Under the pieces are notes generated by a model that did not search any database, was not told the DNA's origin, and saw only the letters and a program-made list of their open reading frames with translations. Of a stretch of 64,000 nucleotides of DNA, positions 2,322 through 6,821 are shown one piece after another. The stretch is from Acidobacteriota bacterium (GTDB lineage Bacteria > Acidobacteriota > Terriglobia > Acidiferrales > UBA7541), in contig QHYK01000071.1 of the NCBI GenBank assembly GCA_003224085.1, positions 1 to 64,000 on the forward strand. Direction: 5' to 3'. The translations under genes were made by a program, and so were the position numbers. How positions within the stretch are numbered: position 1 is the stretch's first letter; each line of letters starts with the position of its first letter.

Positions 2322-2597
2322 CAGAAATCCGCAACATTTCTAAGAAAATCCGCAACCCAATCTATCGAGGTTTGGTCGGGCGAACATTGATCGTTTACCG
2401 AAGACCGTGGAGCATCCGGGCCGTTCGGATGAAGTCTTATCGAAAAAATTTCCGAGAAAGCTTTAGGGTCCCCTTTCGAGGAGGTGGGAGTCCGGCAGTG
2501 GCGGTCGCCCCCGGCCCCTGGCTTCCGTTCGTCGCAAACGACCTGATGCGAAAAATTTGGATAAATCGTCCGGTAACAACGGACGAAGAGAGGAGTG

Positions 2598-3017
2598 ATG
2601 ACAGAATGGTGCTCGACCTGTTCCTACAACCGGGTAGAACCAGGCAGAACGAAGTGCGCTGCTTGCCGAACGCGAGAATGGCGAGAGAAGAACCCGGAGA
2701 AGCAGCTAGAGCAGTACGAGACGGACAGGCTAAAGCGATTTGGAGTTGACTCTTACTGGTACGACGAGAAGCTTGCGGAGCAGCACGGGGTTTGCGCTAT
2801 TTGCGGCAAACCAGAGACTGCAAAGCGAAACGGGAAAGTCTTGCGCTTGTCCGTGGACCACGACCATAAGACAGGAAAACCACGCAGTTTGCTCTGTGCG
2901 GGTTGTAATCGTGGTATCGGCCTATTTGGGGAGGACCCGCAGCGACTTGAGGCAGCAGCGCGCTATTTGCGGCAACACCAAGACAGCCCGACAGCCACAG
3001 TCACGTCAACGAGGTAG
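2598..3017 (+). CDS. Recombination endonuclease VII-like HNH nuclease
   Basis: About 139 residues. The N-terminal part carries two CxxC pairs (CSTC and CAAC) in a short zinc-binding head. The core has CAICGK, then LSVDHDHKTGKPRSLLCAGCN and GIGLFGEDP. The DHDH-TGK-RSLLC-CN-GIGLF series is diagnostic of the phage T4 endonuclease VII family (Pfam Endonuclease_7), which cleaves Holliday junctions and branched DNA. Such genes are common in prophages and mobile islands. A GTG at 2595 is an alternative start; the GAGAGGAG stretch just upstream serves either. It lies between the recombinase operon and a tRNA fragment, consistent with remains of an integrated element. Confidence 0.85.
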   Translation: MTEWCSTCSYNRVEPGRTKCAACRTREWREKNPEKQLEQYETDRLKRFGVDSYWYDEKLAEQHGVCAICGKPETAKRNGKVLRLSVDHDHKTGKPRSLLCAGCNRGIGLFGEDPQRLEAAARYLRQHQDSPTATVTSTR

Positions 3018-4334: not shown

Positions 4335-4401
4335 CTCAACCTCTACGCCTTTCGGGACACGGGCCTAAGCCGTGCGCGTCTGGCAGTTCCGCCACAGCCG
4401 G
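4335..4401 (-). tRNA. tRNA-Leu(TAG) remnant, 5' two-thirds only
   Basis: On the minus strand TGGCGGAACTGCCAGACGCG is a leucine-type D-arm region. CACGG and CCGTG then form a perfect anticodon stem around CTTAGGC, anticodon TAG, and a variable arm CCCGAAAGG follows. The T-arm is lost: GAGGTT runs into the end of the TlpA gene. It is a truncated gene or att-site scar, not a functional tRNA. Its 5' end overlaps the first 17-bp repeat. Confidence 0.6.
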
Positions 4402-4445
4402 ATTCCTAACGCAGCCGGATTCCTAACGCAGCCGGATTCCTAACG
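4395..4445. repeat. Three exact 17-bp tandem repeats
   Basis: CAGCCGGATTCCTAACG is repeated exactly at 4395, 4412 and 4429, with a partial fourth copy. The first unit overlaps the 5' end of the tRNA-Leu remnant, so replication slippage probably copied the edge of the tRNA. From 4451 to 4740 no gene was recognised. Confidence 0.75.
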
Positions 4446-4904
4446 CAGCCTGACATTTCACCAGATGACTTCTCAGCTTCCCCGCGTCAACGCTCGCATC
4501 AGAACACGCATAGAAAATGCTTTGTCGCTTTCGAGCAGGAACCACGACGCCGTCTTATGCTGCGCTGATTCCGGCTCTCTCAAGGTAAGGTCATGTATGA
4601 AAGCCAGAATAGCATCCGCGTTAAGGGCCGTCGTTGACTGTGCCGTTCGCGGCGAATTTGAACAACGGATGAGGGAGGCCGGGTATGCTTCTCACGTTCA
4701 GCGATTGTATCATTAGTTCTTCCAAAGACTTCAATGGACGCTGGTTCAGGTAGTGGGCTAATTGTGTGTTGCTGCCCCCGGCCAGGTGTCTCCCGCCTTT
4801 TTCCGCGTCCGAAACACGCGGATGGTAGAGCGCAAGCGCCTAATCCGCTCCTTGGCATCTGCGATTGCGGTATCCCAACCAGACTGGTTTTGCTTTCTTT
4901 CGTC

Positions 4905-4934
4905 TTGACATTTGTAATAGGCATTGTCTATAAT
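4905..4934 (+). promoter_or_regulatory. Near-perfect sigma-70 promoter, leaderless start
   Basis: TTGACA (4905 to 4910), an 18-bp spacer and TATAAT (4929 to 4934). The ATG follows six bases later at 4941, so the mRNA is probably leaderless. It lies inside the IS element. Confidence 0.75.
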
Positions 4935-4940
4935 CTTGTT

Positions 4941-5504
4941 ATGGACACAAAGAAGAAAAGTACCGATTACTTCAAGCTGGTGCAAAAGGAGTTTGCCAAG
5001 CTTGAGAAACTTCGCCAACGGCGCGATGACCTCGACGTTGAAATCGCAAAGGCAAAACAATTCATAGCGGCAACAGCAAATATGCTGAATGACCGCCAGC
5101 GTGACATTGTGCTTCAACTTATGGGCACAATTGAGGCGGGCAAAATGATAGCGGAAGCTGGCCTCACAGAGGCGATTAGAAGTGTGCTTAAGAAAAACTA
5201 CAAACGGTGGCTTACAGTCACGCAAGTCAGAGATAGATTGGAATCTGCGGGTTTTGACTTTAGCAGCTACAAATCGAGTCCGCTTGCTTCCATTTCGACA
5301 ACCCTGAAGCGATTCAAAGCCGAGGACGTTGAAACAGCCGAGATTGACGGTGTCGCGGCATATCGTTGGATTGGAAAGATTCTCGGCACAGAATCGTCTA
5401 AGGGCTCGGCGTTTTATGGAGAACCGGCGAGAATGGGAACGCTGGCCGAAATGGGGAATCTTGCGAAATTTGTCGAGCAGTGGACCAATATGGGTAAGAA
5501 ATGA
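4941..5504 (+). CDS. Coiled-coil plus winged-helix protein, IS passenger gene
   Basis: A 187-residue protein. Residues 8 to 45 are highly charged and helical (KLEKLRQRRDDLDVEI), probably a coiled coil. Residues about 75 to 140 (LTEAIRSVLKK, WLTVTQVRDRLESAGFD, LASISTTLKRF, AYRWIG) form a winged helix-turn-helix of the kind often found in restriction-linked or regulatory proteins. The start is fixed by a consensus promoter ending six bases before the ATG. It lies inside the terminal repeats of the IS1-type element, upstream of and in the same direction as the transposase, so it moves with it. Its role is unknown; it could regulate transposition or be cargo. Confidence 0.75.
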   Translation: MDTKKKSTDYFKLVQKEFAKLEKLRQRRDDLDVEIAKAKQFIAATANMLNDRQRDIVLQLMGTIEAGKMIAEAGLTEAIRSVLKKNYKRWLTVTQVRDRLESAGFDFSSYKSSPLASISTTLKRFKAEDVETAEIDGVAAYRWIGKILGTESSKGSAFYGEPARMGTLAEMGNLAKFVEQWTNMGKK

Positions 5505-5627
5505 AAGTGCCCCGCCGCTAGTTTCAGCTAACGGCGAGGCTGAATTCAAGAGCGGACGAAGCCCGCACTCGAACCCGAGACTTTGATTGTCGGGCTTCTC
5601 CCTCAGAAAGACAAGAGGAGAAGCCAC

Positions 5628-6638
5628 ATGACCTGCCTGAGATGTAAGCACGCCGAAGCAAAGCGGTTTGGAACCTACGGACGCAAGAGAATCCAGCGGT
5701 ATCGCTGCCCTGCCTGCAATTCGACGTTCTCTGAGCCGCGCCAGCGGCCTCTTGGACGCCACTACACCGATCCCGCGACAGCGGCGCGAATCGTCAACCT
5801 CTCGCTGGAAGGAATGAGCGTTCGCGCCATTTCCCGAGTGACTGGCGTTCACAAGGGAACGATTCTCTCGCTGCTCCTCACAATTGGCGACAACTGCCGA
5901 AACCTCTTCGACAAGCGAGTGCGCGGCATCCGTCCGCGATTCGTGCAGGCCGATGAACTCTGGACATTCGTTCACACAAAAGAGGCGCATCTGTACGGCG
6001 ATACTCCTACGGAGTGGGGCGACCAGTACATTTGGATGGCGATTGACAGCGAAACAAAAATGGTTTTGTCCTACCTCATTGCGAAACGCGAGGGCACCAG
6101 CGCCTATGCGTTCATCCGAGACCTGAGCAAACGAATCACCGGGAGATTTCAGCTTACGACGGACGGTCTCCGTAGTTATGTTCCCGCCGTCGAAGAATAT
6201 TTCGGACCCGATGTTGATTTCGCTCAACTCGTGAAGTTGTACGGAACGAGTGACGGAGAAGGGCCAGACTGGTATCAGCCGTCGAAAGTCACGGCAACCA
6301 TTCCCGTCGTAATCAGCGGAGACCCGGACGAATCGCGCATCAGCACGTCGCACGTCGAACGCGCCAATCTGAGCGTGCGGACGCATCTGCGACGCTTCAC
6401 TCGCTTGAGTCTCGGATTCAGCAAAACAGTTGAGGCCTGGGATGGAAGCGGGAATCGCAGACCACATCTGGACCGTTCAAGAGCTTCTCGAATGCGCCGC
6501 TTAATCACATGGCTTGCCATCCACATCCGTCCGCCACCACCCATCAACACACAATTAGCCCACTACCCTGGTTCACGGTTTGTCCTTCCTAGGCGCGAAA
6601 GGAAACGCGATCTTCCAAATCGCATCGCTCCACTTTGA
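5628..6638 (+). pseudogene. IS1-family transposase with C-terminal deletion and frameshift
   Basis: The start MTCLRCKHAEAKRFG has a GAGGAG ribosome binding site. An N-terminal zinc ribbon (CLRC, CPAC) and a helix-turn-helix (MSVRAISRVTGVHKGTI) precede a DDE domain with Asp in VQADELW, Asp in TTDGLRSY and Glu in HVERANLSVR, as in IS1-type enzymes. After LSLGFSK the frame changes. The expected tail is still present in another frame as MEAGIADHIWTVQELL, ending at 6504, but about 25 to 30 residues between are missing. The present frame reads out through the right inverted repeat to 6638. All catalytic residues survive, but activity is doubtful. Confidence 0.8.
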
Positions 6639-6821
6639 CGGGAGAAGCCACATGATTAGGAAAAAGAACAGCCAGAACGCCAGCAATGGTCCGAGGAAGG
6701 ATTCTATTGGACCTGGAGGCTGGCAGTCCGGGCAAGGCGGAAGCGGCGGGTAAGCCTCGTTAACGCGAGCCTGAGGGTTAGGGGCGCATCGTGTTAACGC
6801 ACGGTGCGTCCCGCTCACCAA
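6573..6821 (-). CDS. Hypothetical single-pass membrane protein
   Basis: An 82-residue frame: a Pro/Cys-rich head (PPLPPCPDCQPPGP), one strong hydrophobic helix (FLGPLLAFWLFFFLIMWLL) and a basic end (FAPRKDKP). The start at 6821 is uncertain; a later start near the Pro-rich part is possible. Its stop lies within the target duplication of the IS element, so the element inserted right at its 3' end and may have altered the last residues. No family is recognised. Confidence 0.4.
   Translation of the reverse strand: MVSGTHRALTRCAPNPQARVNEAYPPLPPCPDCQPPGPIESFLGPLLAFWLFFFLIMWLLPSKWSDAIWKIAFPFAPRKDKP

Follow-up and report, generated by a model that had tools for sequence, protein, structure and literature searches.

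Members of the IS1 family have short inverted ends and duplicate 8–9 bp of their target, and in classical IS1 the transposase is read in two frames linked by a programmed frameshift, which is believed not to be common to all the members of the family. In insertion sequences with passenger genes, an extra gene lies between the transposase and one end. Irregular tRNAs and allo-tRNAs of Acidobacteria were reportedly described by Mukai et al. in 2017. A review (PMC7609411) reports irregular tRNAs in Acidobacteria, mentions one that overlaps a transposon-related ORF and offers the guess that such tRNAs are parts of mobile elements or of toxin–antitoxin systems. Control of a transposase by its own mRNA has a counterpart in ISPpu9 of Pseudomonas putida: the transposase mRNA of ISPpu9 (PMC8450116) has a structured 5'-UTR, which likely includes the ribosome-binding site and which is opened by an antisense RNA.

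The element described here lies in a 64,000-nucleotide stretch of DNA (the whole of which is termed the window) and shares with the IS1 family an IS1-type DDE transposase, N-terminal cysteines, ends beginning with GGT, and an 8-bp duplication. It differs from classical IS1 in being twice as long, in having a one-frame transposase, and in carrying both an additional gene for a DNA-binding protein and a leader with secondary structure. As in other passenger-gene insertion sequences, the extra gene is between the transposase and one end; unlike them, the slot before the conserved leader takes, in the present lineage, varied DNA-binding genes, micro-ORFs and tRNAs. The likeness to ISPpu9 is that secondary structure likely covers the transposase ribosome-binding site (for ISPpu9, see PMC8450116), and the difference is that the opener there is an antisense RNA, whereas in the present leader it would be an arm (arm A) of the same RNA. 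The likeness to the irregular and allo-tRNAs (PMC7609411) lies in anticodons that do not fit the tRNA body and in the link with transposons. The element is of a known kind; what is new is the exchangeable cassette with its leader, together with the relatives that bear tRNAs, and no description of the leader or of cassette exchange was found in the open-access literature.

The element, its ends and its transposase

The element spans 1819 bp between its two inverted ends (Table 1), and the preliminary description of an IS1-type insertion of this length, with perfect 23-bp ends and an exact 8-bp duplication, is confirmed by the sequence. That description also called the insertion recent, which the intact ends and duplication, its sole indications of age, are consistent with; a clean empty site was not found among 36 genomes of the genus (in genome G030, conservation on the left side extends to window position 4736, and no matching right flank is obtained from the short end of the contig). 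There is one copy of the element in its own assembly (6.8 Mb, 97% complete), the whole of which contains no further copy, and the only other transposase match in this assembly is a part-match on contig C151 that is 48% identical. If up to three mismatches are allowed, 53 of the 399 genomes of the class contain the end pattern; its backward control gave no match among the matches listed for these genomes.

Table 1. Features of the element, with their positions in the window.
Feature	Position	Strand	Basis or remark
Left target duplication copy, CTGGTTCA	4741-4748	.	Read from sequence
Left inverted end	4749-4774	+	Perfect over 23 bp (4749-4771); one mismatch if extended to 26 bp
Sigma70-type promoter, TTGACA-18-TATAAT	4905-4934	+	Hexamers 4905-4910 and 4929-4934; 12/12 letters match
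Coiled-coil and winged-helix protein, 187 aa, probable regulator (putative function)	4941-5504	+	ORF, AlphaFold2 model, weak Fur/Zur-like matches
Hairpin H1, first leader part, edge of exchangeable cassette	5509-5540	+	Window fold; RNAalifold covariation
Leader arm A, possible pairing partner of B	5550-5565	+	Folding
Leader arm B, pairs with A or C	5591-5604	+	Folding
Leader arm C, holds Shine-Dalgarno-like GAGGAG	5615-5625	+	2 nt 5' of transposase ATG
IS1-type DDE transposase ORF, internal deletion and frameshift near 3' end	5628-6638	+	ATG 5628; reads beyond element right end
Out-of-frame remnant, natural transposase C-terminus	6442-6504	+	Sequence; comparison with L149
Right inverted end	6542-6567	-	6545-6567 identical to left end over 23 bp
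Right target duplication copy, CTGGTTCA, exact 8 bp	6568-6575	.	Read from sequence

In the window transposase and six relatives, D109, D179 and E244 are invariant, as are, in these seven sequences, the N-terminal zinc-binding cysteines C3, C6, C27 and C30. The protein matches PF03400 at 31.7 bits, above the gathering score of 24.1, scores 92.9 bits with the NCBIfam IS1 model, just below the cut-off of 100, and 24.7 bits with NF050000, a model of the N-terminal cysteines, below the cut-off of 28; its plasmid relatives (21 records, 22–55% identical) are annotated as IS1 family transposases. An IS1 DDE domain, N-terminal cysteines, and short inverted ends with an 8-bp duplication put the element in the family, and it is classified as IS1-related rather than as classical IS1 because its transposase is read in one open frame from the cysteines through the DDE residues.

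A transposase that keeps its DDE residues and has lost its tail, as the preliminary description had it, is indeed what is found: the relative L149, which shares 68% identity with it in the part that matches, shows that some 26–27 residues after about residue 269 have been removed by an internal deletion (about 80 bp), which has also shifted the frame. Since part of the C-terminal region is lost, this copy is probably unable to move by itself and looks defective. Help in trans from a close relative, which had been envisaged, is not evident, given the single copy and the 48% part-match elsewhere in the assembly.

Several other features of the window can be mentioned. An exact 15-base repeat, GGAGAAGCCACATGA, is present at 5617–5631, where it comprises leader arm C and the start of the transposase, and at 6641–6655, outside the element and about 70 bp past its right end; the outer copy is possibly the remnant of an older copy of the element. 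To the left of the element, at 4401–4450, a 17-base unit resembling CGCAGCCGGATTCCTAA is repeated in tandem about three times, and an ORF at 2595–3017 resembles, by eye, an HNH/endonuclease VII-type nuclease.

The winged-helix gene and its relatives

The other gene, a 187-aa coiled-coil/winged-helix passenger with a consensus promoter of its own in the preliminary description, is as described, all the hexamer letters of the promoter being matched. It is read here from the ATG at 4941 (the mechanical ORF opens upstream at 4734), and its mRNA may be leaderless because the -10 box ends 6 nt 5' of this ATG. Among 25 winged-helix genes beside leaders, 12 have a promoter with at least 9 of the 12 hexamer letters located 4–10 nt 5' of the start, compared with 0.55 expected, and the other 13 have no good promoter at the leaderless position.

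The AlphaFold2 model, based on nine sequences, predicts a long N-terminal helix followed by a winged-helix domain (mean pLDDT 78.2). The best PDB match found by Foldseek is a Fur protein, with an E value of 0.0093 and none at or below 0.001, and sequence matches in the PDB are led by coiled coils; because the Foldseek matches are weak, a winged-helix fold is considered plausible and no family is assigned. No Pfam or NCBIfam model came near its cut-off, so that none gives the protein a named family. Used as a query, it had no relative in genome_contigs and none on plasmids, and the corresponding protein of L149 found only its own contig in IMG/VR.

Relatives of the winged-helix protein are present in 29 of the 399 class genomes. 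Thirty-one winged-helix loci were read with their flanks: nine, including the window, have an IS1-type transposase downstream and 22 do not, which means that the winged-helix family is not tied to IS1-type elements. Locus L126, one of these nine, has kept the winged-helix gene and the leader with a mere remnant of the transposase, and L097 is an 863-bp element with the family ends, an exact duplication (TCTTAATC) and a winged-helix gene, inside which there is no transposase match. L117, L127 and L113, which have the winged-helix gene and lack an IS1-type transposase, are each followed by a tRNA predicted by ARAGORN, in which a long variable arm is combined with an anticodon for Ala or Cys; none of the three tRNAs reaches the Rfam gathering score. 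In L127 (G006:C60), where this tRNA is a tRNA-Ala, an opposite-strand ORF alongside resembles, by eye, an IS1595-type transposase; clear inverted ends were not found at this locus. In genome G077 (contigs C41 and C150), loci of the L093 type contain inverted pairs of the end pattern that are too close together for a transposase, and these are possibly small non-autonomous elements.

The preliminary description considered a passenger DNA-binding protein unusual in this family, and this holds for the near relatives of the transposase: 28 of their 29 loci (L010–L038) have no winged-helix match, the exception being L012, and four of the 29 (L012, L014, L015 and L028) have the leader. It does not hold for the lineage, in which such genes are recurrent and exchanged. 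In IMG/VR, four of 46 transposase loci (L149, L153, L154 and L159) have a winged-helix gene, and L153 and L154 give the same matches. Further relatives come from Acidobacteriaceae and Acidobacteria; Nitrospirae (L266), Verrucomicrobia (L269) and two others have the transposase and no winged-helix match.

The leader RNA and the DNA that precedes it

The preliminary description mentioned neither the RNA leader (5505–5630), in which H1, A, B and C follow one another, nor the tRNA-bearing relatives. The stop codon of the winged-helix gene in the window is 4 nt 5' of H1. Between the window and L126, the intergenic DNA is 81% identical, and the winged-helix proteins are just 28% identical. A covariance model built from 12 leaders matched, in the 399 class genomes, 45 genomes and 38 of 136 genera, training sequences included. 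Of its 58 matches, 48, including that in the window, were used and ten were dropped (five antisense echoes of the palindromic hairpin and five weak or partial matches); with L103, five loci from IMG/VR and seven from genome_contigs, this makes 61 leader loci, among which are the training sequences of the model, seven from the class and five from IMG/VR. The counts in this census are minimum values, since the initial scan scored only eight candidates per genome and its filters were strict. No Rfam family was found for the leader in the eight loci scanned.

Compared with shuffled sequences, the leaders fold with z values of -3.65 to -5.51 in eight of nine loci, the ninth, L107, having -2.11; the leader of L242 folds no better than shuffles. 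RNAalifold, applied to 12 sequences, found H1; at eight of its 12 pairs, one or more of the sequences have changes at both paired positions. Fifty of the 61 leaders were given for the analysis of the arms, and 49 had the CAAG landmark (L257 did not); in these 49, the mean z is -2.96 for the A-B part and -2.97 for the B-C part, both parts being below -1 in 46 leaders and each part below -2 in 40. In a survey of 47 of the 61 leaders, a B-C hairpin over the transposase ribosome-binding site is predicted in 46, with a median of 11 bp and with 42 different C arms among the 46; the method used gave no such hairpin in L269. Within these hairpins, a median of eight of the ten positions of the ribosome-binding window are predicted to be paired, and 73% of the B bases in the hairpin are also paired once C is left out. 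The comparison supports alternative A-B and B-C pairings, as predicted from sequence, and this is the arrangement to be expected of a translational on/off switch, from which we infer the switching itself.

The 61 leader loci are diverse in what accompanies the leader: a winged-helix match is present upstream in 27, a tRNA in 12 and a transposase match in 47, the order winged-helix gene, leader, transposase occurs in 23, and 20 have the transposase without a winged helix or a tRNA. In 21 of the 61, the best inverted pair is accompanied by an exact duplication of 8 or 9 bp, with spans of 1819–3502 bp, in a scan that picks the best of many pairs and that had no shuffled control. L250 and L253 have another type of end (GGCAATAA...), with exact duplications, and are 3.3–3.5 kb long.

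Transposase and winged-helix distances are uncorrelated in 17 elements (Mantel r -0.13, p 0.94). This is illustrated by L098 and L099, which belong to one genome and whose transposases are 93% identical and winged-helix proteins 21% identical; their DNA is 89.4% identical over 1049 bp from H1 onward, and L099 has a tRNA that L098 lacks. Similarity begins at leader position +4 to +9 in five of the seven pairs compared; in L106/L228 the shared part also takes in the tRNA, and in L103/L244 the onset is only at +232. From the uncorrelated distances and the edges of similarity, we conclude that the left part has been replaced as a unit. The slot is filled, judging by eye, by a ribbon-helix-helix-like ORF in L150, L232, L259 and L262, and in other leader loci by a promoter directly 5' of the leader with a small divergent gene. 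In L237 and L248, the promoter that lies between the divergent small gene and the leader has on either side, judging by eye, an inverted copy of a motif resembling ATACGTACCCCC / GGGGGTACGTAT, and these are possibly operators. Short ORFs with PP or PPP also precede leaders, e.g., MRIRIVIRFAAGQTVEITVQPPP (L267) and MPPPP (L253 and L263). A conserved micro-ORF of 23–24 aa ending in PP or PPP is located between the winged-helix gene and the leader in L267, L268, L273, L235, L241 and L257, and no PP/PPP micro-ORF was found in the window copy; a role for these micro-ORFs in ribosome stalling is a guess.

In 12 of the 61 loci, ARAGORN finds a tRNA on the same strand 6–15 nt 5' of the leader, compared with an expectation of 0.016 calculated from how densely tRNAs occur in these loci (six other tRNAs, four of them in one array); the window copy has no tRNA according to either ARAGORN or Rfam. 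Rfam tRNA scores are 61.9 bits for L099, 59.5 for L107 and 41.8 for L106, and eight more (L149, L189, L244, L249, L252, L255, L260 and L275) reach the gathering score with 41.1–67.4 bits, in a scan that left out L228 and L247. A long variable arm is characteristic of serine tRNAs in bacteria. A serine anticodon (GCU or ACU) is nevertheless carried by a body with no such arm in L099, L249, L149, L252 and L189 (the tRNA of L189 precedes another transposase), and the tRNA of L244 combines an anticodon that reads UAA with a long variable arm. The anticodon arm or loop is disturbed in L106, L228, L247 and L255; the tRNAs of L107 (Thr) and L275 (Gln) look ordinary. In the tRNAs printed by ARAGORN, the acceptor and T stems are 7/5 or 8/5 (the 5' end is cut off in L247), rather than the 8/4 or 9/3 of allo-tRNAs, and for this reason they are not filed as such. 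L246, L153 and L265 look tRNA-like by eye, and ARAGORN finds no tRNA in any of them, nor does Rfam in L246. In L107 (G344:C180), the element, which has a tRNA-Thr(TGT) of its own, is closely followed by an array of four more tRNAs, among them another tRNA-Thr(TGT).

Possible roles of the cassette

The explanation that we think probable is that of an IS1-related transposon whose control cassette is autoregulated and which also has a translational switch. This transposon of Terriglobia (Acidobacteriota) would consist of two parts: on the right, a mobile core made of the leader (H1-A-B-C) and the transposase and, on the left, from the left end to H1, an exchangeable control cassette. In the window, one strong promoter would drive the winged-helix protein, which most likely limits transcription to a low level by binding to its own promoter, and the transcript would continue into the leader. 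There, the transposase ribosome-binding site would be closed when B pairs with C and open when B pairs with A, and the choice between the two pairings could be made by the translation of the ORF that stops just 5' of H1.

A single chance capture of a host gene is ruled out as the sole reading because the order gene, leader, transposase recurs in other loci, the same two-gene layout having been sought in related genomes and found in class genomes and IMG/VR contigs. The objection foreseen in the preliminary description, that the winged-helix gene might prove to be a normal host gene at this locus in relatives lacking the inverted repeats, does not apply: the gene sits between ends flanked by the duplication, as do several of its relatives.

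The protein might instead be an accessory factor of transposition, acting in end binding, target choice or immunity rather than as a promoter repressor, and the reason for its exchange would then be that ends or hosts differ and that it has to match them. This fits a protein modelled as a coiled coil plus a winged helix, whose gene is always inside the element wherever ends are found, and the existence of L097, with its winged-helix gene as the sole one of the pair; it is less easily reconciled with the 20 of 61 leader loci that have a transposase and neither winged helix nor tRNA, or with closely related transposases that carry unrelated versions of the winged helix, which a tightly fitted partner would not easily allow, and we regard it as unlikely. 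Another explanation, that the gene is cargo, of use to the host or to a different mobile element and without a function in the transposon, could account for the 22 of 31 loci in which relatives occur without an IS1-type transposase, some of them beside tRNA genes. It would not predict, however, that the slot is always directly 5' of the leader in the counted loci, and the ribbon-helix-helix-like ORF (identified by eye) that fills the same slot elsewhere points to regulation; we give this explanation a rather small chance.

The leader could also be mainly a DNA feature, with H1 as the site of cassette exchange and the A-B-C pairing as secondary, and the onset of similarity at H1 in five of seven pairs is what one would then expect. 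This edge, though, may merely mark where conserved sequence starts, the ORF list of the window element contains no visible recombinase gene, and arm C is adjacent to the transposase start and spans the ribosome-binding window; we regard a mainly DNA-level role of the leader as very improbable. The autoregulated cassette with its translational switch can be extended, more tentatively, to the lineage as a whole, and this wider proposal is possible rather than probable: an IS1-related lineage, mainly in Terriglobia, would have a conserved leader RNA with H1 as the docking edge for swappable cassettes (winged-helix genes, ribbon-helix-helix-like genes, proline-rich micro-ORFs and tRNAs with mismatched anticodons), and the tRNAs would act in the control of the element, either through processing at the leader edge or through unusual decoding, which would explain some of the orphan irregular tRNAs of Acidobacteria.

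Through these findings, what began as a single odd IS1-type copy becomes a comparative system, in which related transposase cores are found under many natural control cassettes and which provides a compact RNA segment with two alternative predicted folds that is directly testable. The findings give a fixed place, a few bases 5' of a transposase leader, to odd tRNA genes of soil Acidobacteria, the purpose of which is guessed at and left unsettled in PMC7609411. They also suggest an unusual, modular control of transposons, in which the leader and the transposase are kept while DNA-binding genes or odd tRNA genes are swapped.
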